From Coptis chinensis (lineage: Eukaryota > Streptophyta > Magnoliopsida > Ranunculales > Ranunculaceae): a stretch of 64,000 nt of DNA. Every line of letters begins with the position of its first letter. The first letter of the stretch is position 1. The notes under the pieces were generated by a model, which saw only the letters and a list, made by a program, of their open reading frames with translations, made no database searches and was not told the DNA's origin. Location: the NCBI GenBank assembly GCA_015680905.1, contig CM027381.1:89677501-89741500 (forward strand). Reading direction: 5' to 3'. Below are positions 20,736 through 56,600 of the stretch, one piece after another. Position numbers and translations under genes: made by a program.

Positions 20736-21263
20736 TATCCTCAATTCCTCATTTATAAAACAAACATAACTATATTGAGAATCCTGAATATATTTAAGAC
20801 ATTTGAAAGTTGAAACCCAAAATATATTTGGAAGTCCGTGTTCATAACTCAAAAGGATAAAGTTGTTATTTCGTTCCCCATTCACCGTGAATCCAATCAT
20901 ATTTGTTATTCTCACTCAAACAGACAAAACACACTAAAATCCAAAACCACAACCATCGTTGATTTCATTTATTAACGTTGCAGTACGCATCCACAACAAA
21001 TCCTTTTCGACCCCCTACTAATGTTTCACCAATAAAAGTAGTCTAGTAGCAGGTGAACCGTAAAGCGGTATATCCTCTGAACAACATTCAAAAGGGCGAA
21101 CAACTCATAATTCGTCGTTTAGTCCACTTAAAAACACTTCTCTCTCTCAAAATCTCTGGGGCGACACACTCGAAGCTCCAATCTTCGTTCAGATCGCCCC
21201 TTATTTCTTTATCTTTATATATAACTCAACTCTTCCTCATTCGATTCCACCAAAGAAAAGAAA
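20736..21263 (+). promoter_or_regulatory. Upstream region of the plastidial pyruvate kinase gene
   Basis: This is the only room for the promoter between the retrotransposon and the start codon. A TATA-like TTTATATATAAC lies at about 21213-21224, only 40 bp before the ATG, so it may be leader rather than the core promoter. CT-rich leader-like sequence (TTCTCTCTCTCAAAATCTCT) lies at about 21138-21160. The transcription start cannot be fixed by eye. Confidence 0.3.
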
Positions 21264-24200
21264 ATGGCCCAAGCTTTACATTTCACAATCCCGACCTCCA
21301 CACCACTAAACCGAAACCGAAAATTCCAGCCATCAAAACCATCCATCATCTCACTCCCACGAATCCCGATGCTTAAAAAACAGATCTCAGCCGTTTATTC
21401 CGAAACGGATTCAACCCCTAGGGTTTTGACTGCAGAGAACGGAACAACGGGTGGGATAGAAGTGGATACGGTGACGGAAGTGGAAATGAAAGAGAATGGG
21501 TTTAGAAGTACACGTAGGACGAAATTGGTGTGTACAATTGGACCCATGAGTTGTGGGTTTGAACAATTGGAAGCATTAGCAGTGGGTGGAATGAATGTGG
21601 CTAGAATTAATATGTGTCATGGGACACGTGAGTGGCATAGAGGTGTGATTGATAAGGTTAGGAGGTTGAATGAAGAGAAAGGTTATGCTGTTGCTATTAT
21701 GATGGATACTGAAGGTAGTGAGATTCATATGGGTGATTTTGGTGCTGGTGCTACTTCTGCTAAAGCTGAGGTACCCACTTTTTCCATTTCATCATACTTT
21801 CGATTTCTTGTTTATCGATTTTTTATGTGTTTATATTGTTTGATACCAAAAATAAAATTAGACTAGTATGTAGTTAGATGAATTCGACAAGCATCACCAA
21901 CAAGTTGACGAGTCTCTCATAGAAATGAAAAACGATGTAGCTATAAATATTATTCAAAGGGCACCAAGATACCGAAATTTTTATTTTTTGTAGGTCTACT
22001 AATATATGTGTTGGTACGGAGTATAGGTTAAAGGGCTTATCTATTGATTTAATTATTGTATCTCGTACTAAATAGGTTTAGGGGCTGGGACTTGAAATCA
22101 TGTATGCCAGGAATTCTGTTTTACAAGTATCTAGTGTGTTTTATAAGTGAATCACGAAATAGTGATTATGTACTGTTAGACATGCAATAATTCCTTTCTA
22201 TCATTGGTTGTACACTTACAATCATGTCATGTTCTGCTACTAGAGCATTAAGTTTCCAAGAGAAGGAATATTTGGTGTAGTTTCTTTTTTCCTGATATTG
22301 TCTCGCCTAATATGACGTGGTCAATATTTTTAAAATTGCATGAAGGGTCTCATTGTTTAGTGAAGTATAATATAACTGCCTCTTACAAGTGAACACACAT
22401 TCTTCTTTCATCTCGGCAGTCCCTCATTTCCGGATTTTGCTTGTGCTAATTGGAGATTTGTTTTTATTTCAGGACGGAGAGATCTGGACTTTCAGTGTGC
22501 GTGCCTTTGAATCAGCTCTTCCGGAATATACCATCAGCGTAAACTACGATGGGTTTGCTGAAGGTCACAATTTCTAACACCCCTATTTTCCTAAGACATT
22601 ACCATAGCCACACCACACTACTGTTAAAGAAGCTTACTGAATTTGATTCAATATATTTGAATGTCATGCAGACGTGAAAGTTGGTGATGAACTCCTTGTG
22701 GATGGAGGAATGGTGAGGTTTGATGTTATTGAGAAAATCGGCCCAGATGTTAAGTGCCGCTGCACTGATCCTGGGCTTTTGTTACCACGAGCTAATCTGA
22801 CTTTCTGGAGAGATGGAAGTCTGGTTCGAGAACGAAATGCCATGCTTCCCACAATTTCTTCAAAGGTTGGTGACTTGAATTAAATTCCTGCATTTATTAT
22901 GATGAAATGGGTTTTGTTGGTTTACTTTGGAATGTGTATGGCTGCTTGTGTGTATTTTCACTGCTAAGGCCTGATGAATAGTGCTATATTATGAGAAGAA
23001 GCAATAGTGAGCAAAAAAAGTAGGTGGTGTAAACATACTACCAAAAGCAAGCAACACCACAACACACACACACACACACACACAAAACCTTCACTTTATC
23101 ACTGTTTTCTCTGACTATTAGAAGCATGTGAATGAGTCAAGTGTTAATGGTCTCTCAAACTGCTAGCAAGTTTTCATTTAACTTTTGACATTTTCTCCTT
23201 CCTGAGAAAGAAAAAAACCTGGGATGTATATTACAACGGATGCCTATGAAAATAAGTTTGTCCTCTCTTTTTTCCCCTTGCAGGATTGGCTGGATATTGA
23301 TTTTGGGATTGCAGAGGGTGTTGATTTCATTGCAATTTCGTTTGTTAAGTCTGCAGAAGTCATTAACCATCTTAAGAGTTACATTGCTGCACGATCCCGT
23401 GACAGGCAAGCATTACTGTTCTCTTTTTCTTTTGTTATCTCTGTTTATGCTGGTAATATATTTCTCTTGTAAATACTAGTGTCACGCACTGCAAAGTCCT
23501 AGCTCCAAAATCCAGATTTGGGGTTTATTATGTCGGTGATCAGTTACCTTAATTGTTGAGTCCCTGTAAAAGCTAAATAGGCACCAAGAAATGAGAAAGG
23601 TGGACAGTATCAAAAGCCCCAAACAGTCAAAACTAAGGGTGTGTTTGGCAACTAGGATTTTAGGGTGGAATTCATAATATATTTCCGAAAATTAAGAATC
23701 ACCATGTTTGGCAACCTTTTCTGCACTGTAATGGAAACCTCAAATCCCCAAAATCAAGAAATTGTAAATTTTTATAGGGGGCAGAAACTTGAGATTTCCA
23801 TATATTTAGGAATTTTAACTACTTGAAATTGTAAGTCTTGGAATTATATTTTCAATTCCAATTCCAAAGGAAAACTTCCAAACATACCCTATAGGGAAAA
23901 CACAATTCCAACCTCAAATATGTATAGTGCAGAATGGCAGAGCATGCTACAGGCGTCTGAGCAGAAATTTTCTTCTTCTTCCTAGCTAGCAGTATCTTCT
24001 CCCCTCTATCTCTGTTTCTCTCATCTTCCTAGCCACTTTTCTTCTTCCTCTGTATCCCCCCCCCCCCACATAGATAAAAATAAAGTTGGAGAGAGAGGTT
24101 ACAAAGATGGTGTTAATTGTAGATTTCTGTTTTGGGAAGGAACAAAAAAAATGAAAGCTAGAATATAATTGGGTTACCATTTCATGTATTTTATGTGAAA

Positions 24201-25469
24201 CAACCAAAATGTTGTTATCTTTGGAATCTGCATTGCATAAACATACTTGTCTGACTCAAGTTTCTCGTGAATTTGCTCTGCAGTGATATTGCTGTTATTG
24301 CAAAGATAGAGAGTGTCGATTCTCTAAAAAATTTGGAAGAGATAATTCTGGCGTCCGATGGAGCCATGGTCGCAAGAGGAGATCTTGGTGCTCAGATTCC
24401 ATTGGAGCAGGTCCCTTCGGCCCAGCAGAGGATTGTTGAGGTCTGCAGGAAGCTAAACAAGCCTGTCATTGTTGCCTCGCAGCTGCTCGAATCCATGATT
24501 GAATACCCTACACCTACTAGAGCTGAAGTTGCTGATGTTTCTGAAGCAGTTCGGCAGCGGGCGGATGCCCTGATGCTTTCAGGTGAGTCAGCTATGGGCC
24601 AGTTCCCAGAGAAAGCATTGACTGTTCTGAGAAGCGTCAGCTTGAGAATTGAGAGGTGGTGGAGAGAGGAGAAACGCCATGAAGCTATGGAACTTCCAGA
24701 TATTTCATCTTCATTCTCGGACAGCATTTCAGAGGAGATTTGTAACTCCGCTGCCAAGATGGGTAAAGATTTTTTGACTGCCAAATTTTGTAGCTTTTAA
24801 GTTTCTGTTTCCTTACTTAGTAAGTGACGACATGGATTACAAATTCGTGTTTGCTATAAAAACATCCTGAACCCAATGTTAGAATATACAACTTCAGGTT
24901 ACAAGTACTTTTCTTGATGATCACTCAGTAGTCAGTACTGTCTTTGCTTCTGCATGCTAATGATAACAACAGGATGTGTTAATCTTGGTGTATGTCATGA
25001 ATTTGTGATCACATTATTAGTCTTAATAAAGATAGGTAAATTTGTTTTAGCTGGTTTTTGGGTTGACGTACATTCTTAAATTAATACAATGACAGTCTTG
25101 GTCTCTTGAGCTCTAATTTATTAAATTTTATTTGGGGTTTCTGATTATTGTGACTTTCATTTTGCAGCTAACAATTTGGAGGTGGATGCAATTTTTGTTT
25201 ACACAAAGACAGGGCATATGGCGTCTCTCCTCTCGCGCTGCAGACCTGACTGCCCAATTTTTGCTTTCACAGCTACAACTTCTGTGAGGAGACGTCTGAA
25301 CCTACAGTGGGGCTTGATACCTTTCCGCTTGAGTTTCTCTGATGATATGGAGAGCAACCTTAACAAGACCTTCTCCTTGCTCAAGGCGAGGGGAATGATC
25401 CAGTCTGGTGATCTTGTCATTGCCGTGTCTGATATGTTGCAGTCCATTCAAGTGATGAATGTTCCATGA
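21264..25469 (+). CDS. PKP1: Plastidial pyruvate kinase, alpha-type subunit (six exons)
   Basis: It converts phosphoenolpyruvate and ADP to pyruvate and ATP in plastids, feeding fatty-acid synthesis. Exons: 21264-21770, 22473-22563, 22672-22865, 23284-23405, 24284-24762 and 25168-25469; together 1695 nt, 564 residues. The first 85 or so residues are Ser/Thr/Pro-rich and transit-peptide-like. The catalytic part opens [20 protein letters not shown], with [13 protein letters not shown] and [13 protein letters not shown] where typical kinases have DTKGPEI; this change marks the alpha type. Other landmarks are [14 protein letters not shown], the active-site segment [54 protein letters not shown] and the C-terminus [12 protein letters not shown]. 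All junctions keep frame and all are GT-AG except intron 4, which uses GC-AG. No premature stop is seen. The symbol rests on similarity to Arabidopsis PKP1. Confidence 0.95.
23062..23084. repeat. (AC)n microsatellite in pyruvate kinase intron 3
   Basis: A run of about eleven AC units within the intron between exons 3 and 4. Confidence 0.95.
23406..24283 (+). other. GC-AG intron 4 of pyruvate kinase
   Basis: Exon 4 ends GACAG and the intron begins GCAAGC; the acceptor is TTGCTCTGCAG and exon 5 starts TGATATTGC. This junction gives R-D-S-D-I-A-V, the expected protein. AG|GCAAG is the usual strong context of minor-class GC donors. No nearby GT donor keeps the frame. The intron also holds a MITE and a run of twelve or so C bases near 24057. 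Confidence 0.85.
23636..23890. mobile_element. MITE-like element in pyruvate kinase intron 4
   Basis: Ends AGGGTGTGTTTGG and the inverse of AGGGTATGTTTGG give 13-bp terminal inverted repeats with one mismatch around about 255 bp of AT-rich non-coding DNA. GTGTTTGG-type ends are common in plant MITEs. I could not find a convincing target duplication, so the superfamily is left open. Confidence 0.65.
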
Positions 25470-34559: not shown

Positions 34560-37091
34560 TTATAGCTTGTCCTCAAATTCGGAGAGAGGTGTCATTTGCT
34601 CCTTCAAGCCCTTCCTCCTACGAATCTCAGACACATGGGTTGCTGCTTGCGACCCAGCCTCCAAAGGATCTGAGGACATCATGTCCCAGTGATCAAACAC
34701 ACACTGTGGGAAGGCCTGTCCGGATGTTGCAGCTCTGAGTTGACCGGAGAACCCAAATGACTCAATGACTGGCAAGTACGCTTTGATGTTATATAATGGA
34801 GTACCTGGCCTCTGCATCTCCTCAAAGACATGCCCACGTTTCTGATTCAAAACACCATAAATGCCACCAAGTGCCTGCTCTGGGGCCTGGATCTCGACCA
34901 TGTAAACAGGCTCCAACAGCCTTGGCTTGGCAGTAATCTGTGAAGCATAGATGACTCTCCTTGCAGTTGGAATGACCTGACCACCACCTCTGTGAATGGC
35001 ATCAGCATGGAGCACAACATCACATACCTCAAAGCAAATACCCCTCATGTTCTCCTCAGCTAATGCACCTTCCTTGGATGCCCACTGGAAACCAGCCACA
35101 ACCGAGTCCTTAATTTCATTCAAGTACTGAACTCCCTTACACATATCAACAACCATATTAGGACCGGTGGTCTCAGGACCAAAACACCAGATCTTCTTTG
35201 CAAGATCCTTGTCCCAGCCAAACTCTTCAGACAAGATCTTTGAGCGAACCTTAGGATCATCCCTTGGACCAATACGTCCATCATCAATAGCCTCAGCAAG
35301 ACCATCCTCCAACGGGCGGGCTTCCATATACAAACGGTTGTGCTTATTTGGGGACTTGCTCATCACAGTGCGGACAGACTTCTCAAGCACAGTCTCACGG
35401 AAGGAAACTACAGGGTCAGATTTAATGATTTCGGCCCCACCCATGAAATCATCAACCAAGTCTTTCAAACAAATCTCAAGATGAAGCTCTCCTGCACCAG
35501 CTATAATGTGCTCCCCGGACTCTTCAATTGTACACACAACCATAGGGTCTGACTTGGCTAGACGTTTAAGACCTTCAACAAGCTTCGGCAGGTCTGAGGC
35601 AACCTTGCATTGCACAGCAACACGAACAACAGGTGAAACGGAAAACTTCATAGCACGGATTGGATGTGCCTCAACTTCCTTCTCATTTGTCAATGTAGCA
35701 TTCTTAGTAATGAACTGATCCAATCCAACCAGTGCTACTGTATTACCGCAAGGCACATCCTCAACTGATTCCTGCTTCTTTCCCATCCAAATAACAGTTC
35801 TCTGGACACTCTTTGTGTACAAGTCCTTCTTCTGGCCAGGGACGTAGTTAGGACCCATAATCCTCACTTTCGAACCAGTTGAAACCTTTCCAGCAAACAC
35901 ACGCCCAAACGCAAAGAACCTGCCCTTGTCAGTTGCAGGAATCATCTTTGACACGTAGAGCATAAGAGGTCCTTCAGGATCACAGTTCCTGATTGCTTCA
36001 GCATACTTGTCATCAAGAGGGCCCTCATACAAATTTTCAACACGGTACCTCTGGGCCTTTGAAGGAGAGGGGAGGTGATGTATCATCATTTCCAACAAAG
36101 CAGTGCTGGCAGGGAGCCAGGTCTGCATAACACGCTTCATCAAAGCCTTGCCAAGTAACTCCTTCTCGTCTGACTTCATGGTTACACCAAGCTTCTTCAA
36201 CATGGGCCACAGCTTTTCCTTCTGGTCATTCATACAGGTATTAATAATCTGTTTGATCGGTTCGTAGCAGAACTGAACGAACCCTCTCTTGCAGGTAGGA
36301 GAACCAGTGTTCTTGGCAGTCCACTTCTTGGTAGCTGGGTCAAAAAAGTTCTCGCCCCAGAGCCTCTCCATCATCTTTGATTCGTCAACACCAAACTTAG
36401 ACGCATACATCTTTGCAAAGTTGGTGAGGGTAAATGCCCAACCATGCAGACCAGCAGAGAAGGCAACAGTCCCTTTTTCTGGATAAACCATGACATCACC
36501 CAGGAGAGGATCTTCATAAGTGGCCATAATAACATTGGCATTCTCTATGACCCTCTGGAATGTCTGGTATGCCTCCTCTCCATCAACCTGAAGCTCGAGA
36601 AAGCAACGATCCATCTTGTTTACCGTCAATACAGGCCTAATCCTTTCTCCAAGAGCTTGTCGGAGGACGGTTTCAGTTTGCACACAAACACCCTCAATAC
36701 AGTCAACTACAACAAGGGCACCATCAGTGATACGGAGGGCAGCTGTTACCTCAGATGAAAAGTCGACATGCCCAGGCGAATCAATAAGGTTAATGAGATA
36801 TTCATTACCAACTCTTGGACCCTTGAACGCGCTGAGAGATTCATCAGACATCTCATAGTAGAGAGAAATTCCAGTAGACTTAATTGTAATACCACGCTCT
36901 GCTTCATCTGCGCGGGTATCTGTCATTCTAACATCACCAGCAGTTTCCTGAGCAATGATACCAGCCGCGGCAACCAGAGAATCAGTAAGAGTAGATTTTC
37001 CATGATCCACATGAGCGATAACACTCATGTTCCGAATGTTATCTTTGAGATCCATGATTCGGCGAAGCTCCTCGGCTGTAAACTTCACCAT
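34560..37091 (-). CDS. Translation elongation factor 2 (eEF2)
   Basis: This GTPase moves tRNAs and mRNA through the cytosolic ribosome after peptide-bond formation. The coding sequence is a single uninterrupted frame of 843 residues, the standard eEF2 length. ATG 37091 gives the conserved [14 protein letters not shown]; the frame is open further upstream but has only a TTG there, and an acceptor CACCAG lies 12 bases before the ATG, so the longer version is not used. Seen: P-loop AHVDHGKST (residues 26-34), the switch region with Thr57 in [28 protein letters not shown], the diphthamide loop with the target His in [11 protein letters not shown], and the C-terminus SEFEDKL. No stop or frameshift interrupts it. 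It is expected to be strongly and constitutively expressed. Confidence 0.98.
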
Positions 37092-37103
37092 TTCGTAATG
37101 CTC

Positions 37104-37605
37104 CTGGTGATTAACACAAATAAGCTTCAGGAAAAAAAGATCAAATATTTGAGGATGCAATAGAATTCAAAATGTAGATTCAGTGCAAAAAAAAAAAAGA
37201 CGAATACTTGAATCAGTTGTCGACGTCGATGCAGAAGAAAAGACTACCTAAAGAAACACATTAAAAATTCAATAATTATAGACCTAATAAAAGAGATTGA
37301 ACCAACCTGAGAAGAGATTAAATACCAAAATCTAACAGTTTTAGGCCAATTTAATAAATAGTCAAGGAATATAAACTGTGAAATCAAATGAATGATTAAA
37401 AGAATTACAGTAAACAAGTGAAACAAATTATTATTGATGTAAAAGAATAACCAACCTGGAAAATTAAAGCTTCAAACTTTTCTTCTATAGTAGTAATTAC
37501 AACTTCTAATCAACCTGTAAAAAAAAATAAGATAACCTATATCTGAAAAGGAGAATAAACCAACCTGAAAATCAAAGCTTAACCCAAAAATAAAATTAAA
37601 CCAAC
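37104..37605 (-). other. 5' leader intron of eEF2 with repeated CAG|GTTGG sites
   Basis: On the minus strand the first leader exon ends CTTTGGAAAG and the intron begins GTTGGTTTA; the last acceptor is TTAATCACCAG, joined to GAGCATTACGAA just before the ATG. Inside, CAGGTTGG or CAGGTTGA occurs at about 37560-37567, 37511-37517, 37451-37458 and 37302-37309, each preceded by a pyrimidine-rich tract. Each is an acceptor fused to a copy of the same donor. Confidence 0.65.

Positions 37606-48108: not shown

Positions 48109-48110
<2 letters not shown>

Positions 48111-48169
<59 letters not shown>
48111..48169. repeat. (TA)n microsatellite
   Basis: About 29 TA units; they account for the YIYIYI open frames on this stretch. 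Confidence 0.95.
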
Positions 48170-48649
48170 ATATCACCATATCGCTCTATTTTCCAACCCA
48201 AGCAATATTAGTGGTTCCTAAAAAAGAGGAGGTCCTAATAATTAGAAATGCCTCCCCATATTTGTTTAAATCTCCCTAATCTATTCTTAAATTACTATGA
48301 CCTCCTCAATTTCTAATTTTATCACAAAAAAAAATAACAAAAAAAGATATTGTTACAAAAAAAAAAAAGCAAAACGAAGCTTGTCGTAGCACTGTCACTC
48401 ACCACCGTCAACATCTTTGCCATAACACTGTCACTCACTCCATCAGCAACAGGGCAACAGTGTACTCACTGGTTTTTGGTTTTCAGAATTTTTGTTGGCG
48501 GGAACAGTGTGGTATACTGTTGACAGCATTTGGTTTTGGATTTGTTTGTTGGACTAGTTTTGGGATTTGTTTGTGGATTTGTCTGTATTGGGTTCTGTGT
48601 GTTGTTATTCTACGGGTTTTTGGGTATGGGATATGTATAGTTTGGGGTT

Positions 48650-51600
48650 TGTTTGGTTTGGGATATGGTTACCTGGCTGCGGGATTTTACTATGAGAGGG
48701 AAGAAAGGTCTCGCCCTCTCAGCTACTTCTTTGGGGGTTTGTGCCCCACCCCCTAAGAAACGTGTCAATTGTCCTTTCCGGGATCGTCATGGATGCACCA
48801 ATGGAGTGAACGGTAATGGGTTTACTGTTCCCTATATTTTCACACATTTCGATAAACAACATTTGGATTGCCAGTTGAGTATCCATAGGGTACAAGATGA
48901 GATTAAGGATGATTGTGAACTGTATTTGTCACTAGAGAACTCCTTAAGGTCATTAGACAAATAGGTTTGTGGCATTTGTCTTTGCATCTATGCACTCGGG
49001 ATACCGTGTCGACATCCAGATGATACCATAGAACCGCCTGCTTTGATGGAGAGTAGAGAACCCGCATGTGTTATTATGGGCATACCACAGCCGCCCTCTA
49101 AGCCTAACACTACGGATCTTACACTCACGACACACAGGGGTGACGGTGATACCCCTAATCAGCTTGGTGATGTTTCGCATCTTGATGAGACGTTACTTGA
49201 TAGTGCATTCCGTATACCTTTCCGTACTGTGAAAAGTATACCACGTGCTTGTCGTTTGGCTTTTTCTGGTGCACTAAAATCTGCTTTCTAGGATATTACG
49301 ACTGATCCTCGTTTAGTTATGCTCTGGGTTCATCTCCTTCTTCTGCCGCGCTGTATTCTGCAAGTTTTTCAACCACAGAATCGTCAGGAACGTCGTTCTG
49401 GTACTAGAAAAAACCTTCAACAAAAATAGATTCTCCATGCTTAACCTTTGACGACATGGAATGAGCCTGGTGGGATGTTTCGTCTCTTAGAGTTTGTAAA
49501 TAAAGCCCCCTTCAATCTAGCCACCCCAGAGATCTATCCCCATTCAGAATGTGCGTCGATGCTTGCAGAAAGTTGCTGATGGACATTCTGCTGCAACGGT
49601 AAAAGTGTTGACTTCATCAGGAGTTGCCCCCAATACTGCGGAGACCATATGTGCATTAGAGGAGAAGCACTCGATGCGATAACCACCTATAAGACCAACT
49701 ATTCCTTTTGCTGAGCCCCCTTTAGTGGTAGAGAAAGACGCCCTATTGTCATGTATTAGGTCGTTTCCGAAAGGTACTTCTTGTGGCCATGATGGTCTTC
49801 GAGCTCAGCACTTGTTAGATGCCATGAGTGGTGCTGCAGAAGCTATATCATCTAATTTACTAGATGCATTGACCCCTGTGGTGAATCTTTGGTTACAGAG
49901 ACGATGTCCACAGCCGTTAGCGGAGTTCATTGCGAGTGCTCCGCTTACTCTATTTCTTAAGTCGGATAATAGTATTCGTCCTATAGCTGTGGGCATGGTT
50001 TGGCCGTCTGGTCTCCAAGATTGCAATGAAAGGAGTTTCCAAAGACGTGGTAGGGTACTTACAGGATTTTCAATATGGGGTTGGTGTTTCGGGTGGAGCA
50101 GAAGCAATTTTGCACGCTGTCAACCGTATAATGTATGCTAACAGGGACAATACCTCTCTTTAGATGCTGTTTGTAGATTTTCAAAATGCCTTTAACATGG
50201 TTGATCGGACTACCATGTTAAGAGAGGTTCGTATCCGGTGCCCAGCTATTGCCCCTTGGGTCGAGTACTTGTATTGTCAACCTGCAAGGTTATTTTTGGG
50301 AGATGGCTACATATGTTCTATATCCAGCAAGGCGACCCTTTGGGTCCCCTTCTCTTTGCACTGGTGCTGCATCCTCTGATTCTACGGATCCAGTCTAGTT
50401 GTCAGTTATTGCTACAGGCTTGGTACCTAGATGATGGGACTCTGATCGGAGATACAGAATAGGTGGCGATAGCTTTGGGTATGATTCAGGAAGAAGGACC
50501 TTCTTATGGGCTGGTTCTTAATGTGGCTAAAACTGAGGTATTTTGGCCATCACTAGATCCACGTCGCTCCACTCTCGGTCTCTTTCCTTCAGATATGTCC
50601 CGTCCTCAGCAGGGGGTTAGGTTGCTTGGAGGTGCGGTCAGCACTGATCTATCTTTTGTCAGGGGCCTTGCTCGAAAGCGTGTTGAAAAGGTTATGACTT
50701 TGATGGACCGTTTAGCTGTGTTGGAAGATCCTCAGTGTGAGTTAGCGCTTTTACGAGCATGTGTGGGATTCTTTGGTCTTTGCGATTCGTACTTGTCCAC
50801 CATCGCTTTTCAGAGAGGCAGCTAAGACTTTTGATCGGCATCTCCGCAATGTTCTCCAGGGTATTGTGGTTTCTGATGGTCCTGAATTTGGTGATATGCA
50901 GTGGCGTTTATCGACACTCCCATTATATCTTGATGGTTTAGGTATCTATTGTGCCTCTGATGTCTCTACTTTTGCTTTCGTGGCCTCCCGTTGTCAGACT
51001 TCTGAGCTTCAGAACCACATTCTTAGGAGTTGTGGCCGAGTGGCTGTTGATGCGATTCTTGATGTTGCTAGCAGTGCATTGAGTCTCTGTTTACCGATCT
51101 TGACCTTAATTCTTTGGCTGTGAATGCTATCGTCCCCTCAAAACCACAAAAAGTTTTGGCAGAAGCGTTCTACAGTAAGATTGTTGATGGTATTGAGAGA
51201 GAGTTTGAATTATCTGCTCATCAAAAAGCAGTCATTGGATACTTGCAGTCAGAACACGCAAAAGATTTTCTACTTGTTATTCCGATGGAGGGACTTGGAT
51301 AGTGTATGTCGCCGGTGGAGTATCGTTCTATTCTCCGGTACCGTCTCATGATTCCTTTGTACTCTGACGGTGGTCTATGCCCTATTTGCAAAAATAGTAG
51401 ATTGGATGCTTTCGGGGACCATGCAGCACACTGTCGACACTTTTCAGGTTTCAAATATCGACATGATCATGTCAGAGATATTTTATGTAATGCATTTTGG
51501 AGGGCTGGGGTACAAGTGAAAAGGAGGCTCTCGTCAATTTTCTCATTGATCCGAATGAGGGAAGATCGACACTTTGGCCTGCGGATGTATTGATCTATAG

Positions 51601-52000
51601 TTGGTCTGAGGGGAGGCATGCATGTATTGATGTAACTAGAGCCTCTCCGTTGGTAGGGATTGAGAATGGAGTCTTTGGGGTGGGTGACGCAACTAATAGA
51701 GCAGCAGCAAGAAAGATTGAGAAACACGAGGAGGCTTGTAGGGCTAACCAGCATTGTTTCATTCCGTTCAGTTTTGACACTTTTGGTTTTTTGGCACAAC
51801 AGTCTGTTGAGTTCCTTAAGAGATTGCAAAAAGTTATGGACTGCAGCGTAATGACAGCTGGTTCTAACGAGTTTGTTTTTAGGAGGATAGGATTTGCTAT
51901 TCAGAAAAACTTGCGTCACACCTTGTTGCACACTTGTCCTAATTATTTGTAAAACTCGTTATCATTATCAATAAAATTTCCACTTAAAAAAAAAAAAAAA
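48650..52000 (+). mobile_element. Non-LTR-type reverse-transcriptase element with restriction-like endonuclease, decayed
   Basis: Parts in order: an N-terminal zinc-finger-like motif (CPFRDRHGC, 17 residues, HFDKQH; 48785-48865), a second Cys/His cluster VCGICLCIYALGIPCRH, then LLLLPRCILQVFQPQNRQER. The RT domain starts near 49725: SFPKGTSCGHDGLRAQHLL, SDNSIRPIAVG, motif A FVDFQNAFNMVDR (50170), motif B QQGDPLGPLLFALVLHPL (50320), motif C YLDDGTLIGD (50430). A CCHC finger CPICKNSRLDAFGDHAAHC (51380) precedes KYRHDHVRD. The C-terminal domain has PADVLIYSW and HACIDVT, the spaced acidic residues of a PD-(D/E)xK-like nuclease. AATAAA and a 15-A tail (51986-52000) end it. At least five frame breaks disable it. 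No apurinic-type endonuclease was seen. Target duplications were not found; the 5' end is approximate. Confidence 0.8.
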
Positions 52001-53188: not shown

Positions 53189-53655
53189 TTAGTTTAGAAA
53201 GTTTACCAATGTCGGCAGGGATGGTTCCCGCCAACCCTGTGCGTGTAAATCAAAGAAGGGAGAGATTTGGGAAAGAGGGGAAGCTTAAATTGTCCAATGT
53301 ACCACTAGCTAGGTTCCCAATAAAGACCTTCATATATATATATATATATATATCCGTTATATATATCCGGTGTGTTTCCTATGCTTATCTCCGTTATGCT
53401 TCCCAGATTGTTGCATCTGATTCCGTCCCTTGCACATGGGTTTGATGAATCTTTAGTAACAGTATCATTGTACCATGATTGGATGGTAGACCCATAATAT
53501 TTAAGGCTGGCCTTCCAGTAGAGGAGGGATTTCGCTTCTACAGATAACGATACAGATGACACAACAGCCTTTTCATTAGCATATGAGCTGGGAGAAAGTA
53601 GTAGTAGTAACAATATAATCAAAACCAGTATGGAGATGGAGAGTAGTGAAGCCAT
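53176..53655 (-). pseudogene. LRR receptor-like kinase, 5' fragment
   Basis: From ATG 53655 the frame gives a strong signal peptide (SILVLIILLLLLLSPSSYA), then the LRR N-terminal cap: EAKSLLYWKASLKYYGSTIQ, SSNPCARDGIRCNNLGSITE. The usual C-x-W-x-G-I-x-C motif has Arg for Trp. A (TA)n tract (53332-53352) then breaks the frame, followed by NLASGTLDNLSFPSFPNLSL, a TGA and GLAGTIPADIGKLSKLTYL, one leucine-rich repeat. No kinase or transmembrane segment follows. These receptors sit at the plasma membrane and sense peptides or damage; this is only the first tenth of one. The (TA)n expansion inside it is probably secondary decay. Confidence 0.85.
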
Positions 53656-56600
53656 GATGTTTGGTAGCTAGCACTAGACAAGGTAGTGTTGGGCATTACT
53701 AGCTAATAATTAGTATGTGCTGCATGATTGCTCTTTTGCACCATTGGATACGTTTGTAGTATTGACTTGAGAGTCATTAGTCATGGTCTCTTATCATTAT
53801 TGATGTGAGAGTCGTGGTCTCTTATCTATGTAATTAATCTAGTGATGGGCACTTTGGCATTGATTTGAAGACATTGTCTTCTTTGTAGAATTTTCTGGTC
53901 ATCTGCATATTAACGGCAGTTTGCGTCAAAAGAGGAGGGTTTATATTTGTGTCATGGTAGTGGATAGCGCAACCACTGCTAGCATGCTGCCACTAATAAA
54001 CTTGCACGGCTGCTGATTCTGCTCCCAAATTTGCCTAAAAGCCAAGTACAGGGTTATGTCTACTCGGGTTGGATATTTTGCAACGGATATCTATGTCAGC
54101 ATTGTCCTTCTAAGTTCTAACTTGCTCATAGGGTGTTTCTTTGTTTTCCCTCTCTGTCATTTACTATAGTCTAAATGTTTCTTGCCATTTATTGATGCAG
54201 AAGAGGCATATCCTTAGGCCTTAGCCGCATGTATGAAAAAAAGTTTCGCATATGTGAGTAGACCGTACCTTACTTTTCCTGGTAATCGAATAACTGTTTG
54301 AATTGAAAGATATTACCATTTTCTTTTTCGAATATCTTGATATAGATTGGTATGCATGCCATGTTTATGTTGAAATGACAATGCTTTCGTTTTCGTATTT
54401 GTGTAGTAGTCATGCTCTATTAGTGTAGGATACGTCGGCGTCAAAATTGTTGAATTAGAGTGATTCTGTCATTCAACCGTTTCAGCAACCCTTGCCTTCT
54501 ACAAAATTTAATCAAGTCTTCCACCCTAGAACTCCCCAACAAAATGAAAACACCTCTTCTCATTAGCAATACTTACAAGATTGTTCAATCCCTCATCATC
54601 AAAATTGTTTAGGTCAACTTTAATTTTTCCAACTGCGATATCGATTGAAAAAAGAAATATTTTTTGTACACTTAAACGTTTGCAAAAATTTGAATTCGAA
54701 CAGGTAAAGTTCTTAGTTTCTCTTTCAAACCAATAAATATAGATCAAGCTCTTTATAGGATAATAAATGTTAAGTTTATTGTCAGGGTAATGAAATACTC
54801 ATGTTTAGCTTATTGTCAGGGTAATGAAAGTCACGTTTGAAGGTAATATGAGTTTGTTAAATAATTTGAATAAAAATTTCACGATTTTTGTTAAAACTTC
54901 TGACCCATTATATTGGATTGATTAAAACTCCAAAACTTTTGGTCTCTGTTATAGTATATTTGATTATTATGAGAAAACACTCCCTTAGATTGTGAAGACT
55001 TTATGGATACATGAAGATTGAGAATTCAAGAAATACGTTTTCTATATCTTGCAGAAATTCGTAAAAAAATAACTGTTTAGACTATGGTTTGTTATAAACA
55101 ATCAAGTAAAATGATCAAGTAGTGAATAGGACACTTTGGCATCTATTTGCATTAGCCAAAACCAAAGTTTCATTACAATATTATTTCATGTCCAATATAG
55201 TGATCACACTCTTCTATTAATTCCCTTTTTGTACGATAGCACTCCATGACACCATTTGCCTTCTTAAATATTGCCACAATTATTGATAAGCTCGACGATA
55301 TTTGTTCATAACTTATCAATACTTTTTGCAAATTTATTGTTTAGTACAATCAGTTAATAATTCCATATGGTAGCCATGAAGTTATATCAGTTTCAAGTTG
55401 AGAATGATATTCCTTGGTATTATTGTAGGTTCATTTGATCATAGCAAAATCCAGAGAAAGCTATGAAAATTTGAAAGGCAATTTATGTAGCATAAGATTG
55501 AAGGTGGCAAAAGGGATAATCTCATTGCCCTGTACAGTGTTTTGTCAAGATGAAATTACGAATTTAATTTGAAATATCATATATGTTAGTTGTAGAAAGT
55601 GTTTTGTCACCATTAACTATAAGATGGGGTAGGACCGCAGGATGCCAAACAGGCCTTTGTTATTCGTATATAACAATCCACCCCGATTATAAACAAGTAC
55701 AAATATTGGATAGTTGTAGTACTGTTAGTTTACACCAGGCATAGGTTAAAACCCATTATAGTACATCTTCTATTGTTATACCTGCATCCTTATGTGGGTT
55801 ATCCCCTTCAATGTGGGTTGTGTAATAGGCTAATAACAATGGGGTTTGCTTTACATCTACATAATATCGACATAGTATGTGTTCAATTAGAAAAGAATGT
55901 ATTGGTCACCTTTAGAGCTTTAATTACTTTTTTTATTAGACAAAGGCAATGCCTATCATTCTTTTATTGCCTAGGTTATATACAATAATATTTACAATGG
56001 AAAACATATTAGATTCCATCATGACTACTAAACAGGTTCCTAAAAATGGGGATACTAAACTCTATTAATTTTTTACATTCCTACATTGCATATAATAAAC
56101 ACTTTGTATTGGATGTCTAATATTTTTTCCTAACTTATAGTGGAATAGGTTATTTGTTTTCATTTTCTTTCACAGATAGTATGGTAATTCATGGAACGTA
56201 AACGGTGAGTGTCTAAAGTTATCATAAAGTTTTCTTTAATTATATGTTCTTTAACAATCAGATGAGACATACCATTTAATTATGACTATTAAGAGCTTGA
56301 CTGAAACACAAGGAGCAGAATTGTTGGACAACCAAGTATGAGCTCGACATTGATTTTCTTCTCTTCTTCTTCTGCTCTTCAAAAAACTGATCTATCTTAC
56401 TACTTTAAAGAGAATTGTCTCGTGAACAATAACACTTTACGATTTTACCCCTATTCGGCTTCGATAATTACGGATATGTATCTTAATGATTATTGTAATA
56501 ACGTAATTTATGGAGGGGTAAAATCGTCCATTTCCACAGTGAAATTCAGACGCTTCTCCCTCATTTTAGCACATTGCCATCAATTGCCGCTGATCGAATT

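Follow-up and report, generated by a model that had tools for sequence, protein, structure and literature searches.

Which type of retrotransposon occupies positions ~48369-52000 of a 64,000-nucleotide stretch of the Coptis chinensis genome (contig CM027381.1, positions 89,677,501 to 89,741,500; hereafter the window), where an original prediction made from the letters alone had placed a non-long-terminal-repeat (non-LTR) element with a restriction-like endonuclease (RLE)? RLE-type elements are best known from animals and microbes, and plant L1 and RTE long interspersed nuclear elements (LINEs) use an N-terminal apurinic/apyrimidinic (AP) endonuclease. We find that the window element is very probably a defunct member of an RLE-type LINE family of plants, which would have moved by RLE-dependent target-primed reverse transcription. 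The central claim of the original prediction, an RLE element in a plant, is sustained by a weak structural match of the endonuclease, a profile link to the R2 RLE and full-length relatives in other plants.

Domain architecture of the window element

The broken element lies on the plus strand and carries, in order, two N-terminal Cys/His fingers, reverse transcriptase (RT) motifs A/B/C, a thumb/linker, a CCHC knuckle, an RLE domain, an AATAAA signal and poly(A). Its 3′ end is common to genomic copies at 85–92% identity and its 5′ end is shared with copy L026. Comparison with other genomic copies moved the true 5′ end ~280 bases upstream of the predicted start, to near 48369. The features are as follows, with the term long relatives denoting 18 related proteins of more than 1030 amino acids.

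48357..48368 (+): run of 12 A, presumed target A-tract, abutting the element's left end (5′ end by comparison with copies L026 and L009)
48369..52000 (+): whole element, comprising 5′ untranslated region (UTR), broken open reading frame (ORF), 3′ UTR and poly(A) (genomic copies compared)
48770..48862 (+): N-terminal C2H2-like finger, CPF..C..H....H (pattern in 12/18 long relatives)
48968..49015 (+): second N-terminal finger, C-x2-C...C-x-H (CGIC...CRH; pattern in 16/18 long relatives)
49750..50676 (+): RT domain in three broken frames (motifs, alignment to relatives)
50170-50193 (+): RT motif A, FVDFQNAF
50325-50357 (+): RT motif B, QQGDPLGPLLF
50424-50435 (+): RT motif C, YLDD
50677..51377 (+): thumb and linker region (alignment to relative P0004)
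51378..51434 (+): CCHC zinc knuckle, C-x2-C-x10-H-x3-C (CPIC...H...C; motif pattern)
51459..51949 (+): RLE domain (structure matches, profiles, motif pattern)
51459-51467, 51524-51526, 51578-51586, 51629-51631 and 51713-51715 (+): RLE residues RHD, E, PAD, D and K, respectively
51623-51637 (+): CIDVT
51970..51975 (+): AATAAA polyadenylation-like signal (sequence)
51986..52000 (+): poly(A) tail of 15 A (sequence, copies compared)

Every motif named in the original prediction is present on this strand, spread over broken frames. Stops and several frame changes run throughout the copy and its longest open frame is 153 amino acids, so the copy is dead, as had been proposed. A tryptophan stands in place of the arginine of the usual RPAD. 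Pfam analysis of ten window pieces returned RVT_1 on 50205-50459 (E 0.0027, below the cut-off) and two other sub-threshold matches. Just upstream of the element lies a TA microsatellite (48109-48167) that is matched in several copy loci.

Structure and profile comparisons point to an R2-type nuclease at the C terminus. Using a full-length relative as the Foldseek query, the seven best matches are all R2 chains, and for the C-terminal piece of the window copy the best match is the R2 RLE, followed by viral cap-snatching nucleases, all with weak scores. Profile comparison forms a chain from the plant RLE to the RLE of distant relatives and from there to the R2 RLE; the N-terminal and linker parts are not alignable with R2. 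These comparisons support the restriction-like endonuclease originally proposed, and we regard the C-terminal domain as homologous to the R2 RLE with a predicted PD-(D/E)XK-like fold, although the structural matches of the window piece are weak. The knuckle-RHD-E-RPxD-D pattern occurs in 19 of 25 aligned relatives, whereas none of 5000 shuffles of their sequences contains it. In eight full-length relatives Pfam detected only RVT_1 above the cut-off, with no AP endonuclease, protease or RNase H domain.

Genomic copies and insertion sites

We searched the genome assembly (935.6 Mb in 116 contigs; the nine contigs with matches measure 85-125 Mb) twice for further copies. The first search listed 44 matches, on all nine large contigs, with 40 of 3311 candidates scored, and the second listed 41 matches with 40 of 3176 candidates scored and two places in common with the first. 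More than 70 distinct genomic places are represented among the matches listed, and the true copy number is probably higher. We read 20 copies with both flanks, 19 more at the right end and 14 at the left. Copies that keep the 3′ end stop in or near AATAAAATTTCCACTT followed by poly(A), and their 5′ ends differ. Across 21 copies including that of the window, the mean Kimura two-parameter distance is 0.109 and nearest neighbours lie at 0.058-0.086; judged by these distances, there is no very recent pair among the copies compared. No open frame in these 21 copies exceeds 600 amino acids. When L015 and L017 are set against L010, L026 and the window copy, the 5′ UTRs differ within the family: ~325 bases are common to L015 and L017, whereas the window copy and L026 carry another leader, so that the 5′ ends look modular. 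A human L1 query gave no match in the window or in the 20 long copy loci.

The 5′ junctions show an excess of A-runs on the element's own strand. Of 35 5′ junctions examined, 4 were dropped and 31 resolved, and an A-run was defined as at least 8 A on the same strand within -30 to +10. Such a run is present at 17 of the 31 junctions versus 2.7% of 6200 control windows from the same left flanks, while a T-run is found at 1 of 31 junctions versus 1.2% of controls. Several junctions were placed by hand; among the 12 taken straight from genome-search coordinates, 7 have an A-run. Four copies (L010, L016, L022 and L027) occupy a single junction within one repeat family and share one A-tract; their flanks align at 68-90% over 768-1708 bases on the left and at 65-85% over 106-1407 bases on the right. 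In 12 empty sites of this shared repeat an A-run of 6-13 lies exactly at the insertion point, and it measures at least 9 in 11 of them.

The left A-runs could instead be a product of insertion, if the enzyme, on reaching the 5′ end or a stop, jumped to the poly(A) of another RNA and copied A before joining the left flank. At a second target family the filled copy (L065/L051) has a left A16, whereas 10 related empty sites are A-rich with longest A-runs of only 4-6, so part of the A-run may arise during insertion. L055, in which the A-tail of one copy runs straight into a second element 3′ end, and L016, in which a 5S rRNA (L016:3012-3126, G000 C9; Rfam 70 bits) is joined directly to an element 3′ end as by template switching, likewise fit RNA-RNA joining or, alternatively, insertion into a tail. 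However, the A-run pre-exists in the 12 empty sites of the other resolvable target family, and jumping gives no account of four copies with different 5′ ends at one tract. We consider this origin of the A-runs unlikely overall. The 5S chimera as a SINE (short interspersed nuclear element) family was rejected, with only one found among 41 matches listed. Three short element 3′ ends with similar ~70-base heads adjoin A- or AAC-rich tracts in L028 (187-643, 1307-1762 and 6841-7298) and may form a local array or represent a short non-autonomous derivative.

It is less probable still that the four shared-site copies descend from one insertion that multiplied with its repeat and later lost 5′ parts, in which case they would be uninformative on target choice. 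Flank identity in L010, L016 and L027 (82-90%) does resemble element identity (85-88%), and joint multiplication is possible for these three. Yet the left flanks of all four copies break off at one base, whereas the element begins at a different point in each, and in L022 the flanks show 68-70% identity versus 86-87% for the element. The differing starts argue that the copies inserted separately at this site, and L022, with flanks far more diverged than its element, is the clearest case.

Neither a general target duplication nor a unique target sequence emerged from the copies. In 20 copies the longest string shared between flanks averaged 4.7 versus 4.8 in mismatched pairs, and in 29 copies the values were 3.45 and 3.28 non-A letters, a measure to which pure-A duplications are invisible. 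Rfam analysis of the 20 long copy loci and L055 found no large-subunit rRNA and no U2 small nuclear RNA (snRNA), only the one 5S, which led us to discard ribosomal DNA (rDNA) and U2 as targets. We also rejected strict sequence specificity, since among right flanks compared for 40 copies (two lacking the 3′ end) only four fall at a common position, in one repeat. Folding did not support a landing-site hairpin, which was rejected, with a mean folding energy of -3.7 versus -3.3 in controls (standard deviation 2.4). Where a specific target had been suggested for the element, the copies point to a preference for A-rich places with no single gene sequence and no strict consensus.

Target-primed reverse transcription, in which the RLE would act as nickase, would account jointly for the domain content, the poly(A) tail, the truncated copies, the strand bias of the A-runs and the lack of an overall target duplication. 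By analogy with R2 biology, from which we infer the catalytic steps, the protein would bind its own polyadenylated RNA and the RLE would nick the T-rich strand at an A-rich site, after which the freed T-rich 3′ end would pair with the poly(A) tail and prime reverse transcription. A nearby second-strand cut by the RLE would duplicate few or no target bases or delete a short stretch. Truncated copies would result where reverse transcription stopped early, and jumps of the enzyme between templates could yield both the chimera of 5S rRNA with the element and the copies found in tail-to-head tandem.

Relatives and placement of the reverse transcriptase

A protein search with the window pieces, joined by X at breaks, found 486 proteins, and the named relatives among the best 120 of 486 come from six orders of flowering plants. 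Asteraceae matches include Tanacetum, Helianthus, Tagetes, Cichorium, Artemisia and others; further matches listed are Ranunculus and Papaver (Ranunculales), Spinacia, Silene and Saponaria (Caryophyllales), Trifolium (Fabales), Orobanche (Lamiales) and Apium (Apiales). Five of the six orders were looked up; the Asteraceae belong to Asterales. Named relatives of 1035-1081 amino acids, full-length proteins whose existence had been anticipated, occur among these best 120 in Asterales, Ranunculales and Caryophyllales, and the Fabales, Lamiales and Apiales matches are shorter or cover the query partially. Many relatives are annotated as 'reverse transcriptase domain' or 'hypothetical' and some as 'exostosin'. 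Plant gene models P0007 and P0055 fuse the RT protein to kinase or copia domains and P0008 and P0015 are named exostosin; all four are probably annotation chimeras or misnamings. A second search seeded by the distant member P0119 found 179 proteins, and the best 120 of 179 comprise the same plant proteins, unnamed metagenome proteins and entry P0139, whose Em prefix we take to denote the sponge Ephydatia muelleri. Among the matches listed in the protein searches there was no named CRE, NeSL or Utopia sequence.

We built an RT tree of 69 rows by a quick method, rooted on one human L1 fragment, with 20 R2 rows all from one search seeded by R2Tg and with rows other than CRE, NeSL, Utopia, R4, Hero and RTE, so that clade placement is read only against R2. 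The window and 19 plant-type rows form one set (support 96), which nests with distant relatives, mostly unnamed proteins, in a 48-row clade (99 by the Shimodaira-Hasegawa-like approximate likelihood ratio test, SH-aLRT; stem of 4.44 changes per column) apart from the R2 rows. The tree thus refines the R2-like architecture originally described, with an RT that appears to fall outside the R2 rows sampled; L1 is the root, so kinship with L1 lies outside its reach. We tentatively propose, as a possibility short of our preferred reading, a deep unnamed RLE-LINE clade spanning eudicots, a sponge and uncultured organisms. Its plant branch would be poly(A)-tailed and would land on A-rich tracts, among them the poly(A) tails of the family itself and of unrelated elements.

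An L1- or RTE-type LINE with an AP endonuclease and a merely RLE-like C terminus is very improbable. The family shares its host group and 5′-truncated copies with plant L1 and RTE elements and its poly(A) tail and A-rich target with L1, whose type of enzyme would also prefer A-rich sites; the RT profile scores for R2 (48.1 bits) and L1 (43.5 bits) are nearly equal, and the top row in VIA is L1. However, the eight full-length relatives have a C-terminal RLE linked to that of R2 and no AP endonuclease, and no overall target duplication was detected in the copies, whereas L1 and RTE duplications measure ~7-20 bases.

Membership of the R2 clade proper, with rDNA as the target, is scarcely credible. 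R2 chains are the best matches in Foldseek and among PDB profiles, and R2 (R2Bm, R2Tg and R2 of Platysternon) shares with the family a single ORF and the same order of fingers, RT, knuckle and C-terminal RLE. Against this, the well-supported 48-row clade with its 4.44-change stem sets the R2 rows apart, the N-terminal and linker parts do not align, the plant knuckle reads H-x3-C rather than H-x4-C in pattern-matched rows, and the family is poly(A)-tailed and dispersed, with no large-subunit rRNA in the 20 long loci and L055. A domesticated host gene with pseudogene copies, to which the relatives annotated as host genes and the few fused to other domains might point, has negligible probability: the copies are scattered over more than 70 places, share their 3′ end and a poly(A) tail and are shortened to varying extents at the 5′ end, and the 21 examined have no long open frame.

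Several observations weigh against an RLE element with target-primed insertion at A-tracts. The stem of the 48-row clade is long and long-branch error is possible; besides the A16 of L065/L051 described above, strings shared between flanks reach 6 non-A letters in 3 of 29 copies versus 2.2% of mismatched pairs; and the family knuckle, CX2CX9-11HX3C in 21 of 22 pattern-matched rows (25 rows examined), departs from the CX2-3CX7-8HX4C spacing given for RLE-type elements in the available text of PMC5678591. MoTeR and FoTeR, which are RLE elements, likewise depart from that spacing in the portion of PMC12857005 at hand.

Other RLE groups show partial likenesses. R4/Dong elements, also RLE LINEs, insert into simple repeats. 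Togen is an RLE LINE targeting (TG)n according to the accessible part of PMC4640811. The plant family resembles both in simple-repeat insertion but its tract is A-rich. Relative P0004 has the RLE spacing H-x3-C, RHD, x19, E, x16, RP(A)D, x14, D. As far as the excerpted PMC12857005 describes them, CRE-group elements (CRE1/2, SLACS, CZAR, MoTeR, Cnl1 and FoTeR) share the RLE motif order and most spacings and differ in the knuckle (plant C-x10-H versus x6-8), in the distance before RHD (x8 versus x9-10), in the extra residue of the plant RPAD and in miniexon or telomere specificity, of which the plant family has none as far as seen. NeSL and Utopia are also RLE-type LINEs, and the broad eukaryotic spread of Utopia (PMC4640811, same part) is paralleled here, but the plant family lacks U2 snRNA at the 20 long loci and L055 and lacks a protease or RNase H domain in the eight relatives.

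Wider relevance and neighbouring features

The R2 enzyme is under study for targeted gene insertion, and the family would offer a plant-adapted relative. A 2022 review of land-plant transposons, in the part available, presents plant LINEs as L1 and RTE (PMC9033089), and none of the titles and abstract openings that we screened describes an RLE LINE from a flowering plant, although the family may be catalogued in Repbase or Dfam. An RLE family in six orders and more than 70 genomic places would widen this L1/RTE-only picture and, if the deep clade is real, would add a third flowering-plant LINE type beside L1 and RTE. Many 'reverse transcriptase domain' gene annotations would be corrected, and the A-tract preference would allow direct tests of how RLE elements choose their targets.

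Elsewhere in the window, translations inspected by eye suggest an 868-amino-acid open frame for elongation factor 2 (34560-37166, minus strand) and two open frames resembling exons of a plastid-type pyruvate kinase (21225-24800, plus strand). Approximately 1.3 kb from the element, an open frame at 53305-53667 on the minus strand resembles, also by eye, the N terminus of a leucine-rich-repeat receptor kinase.
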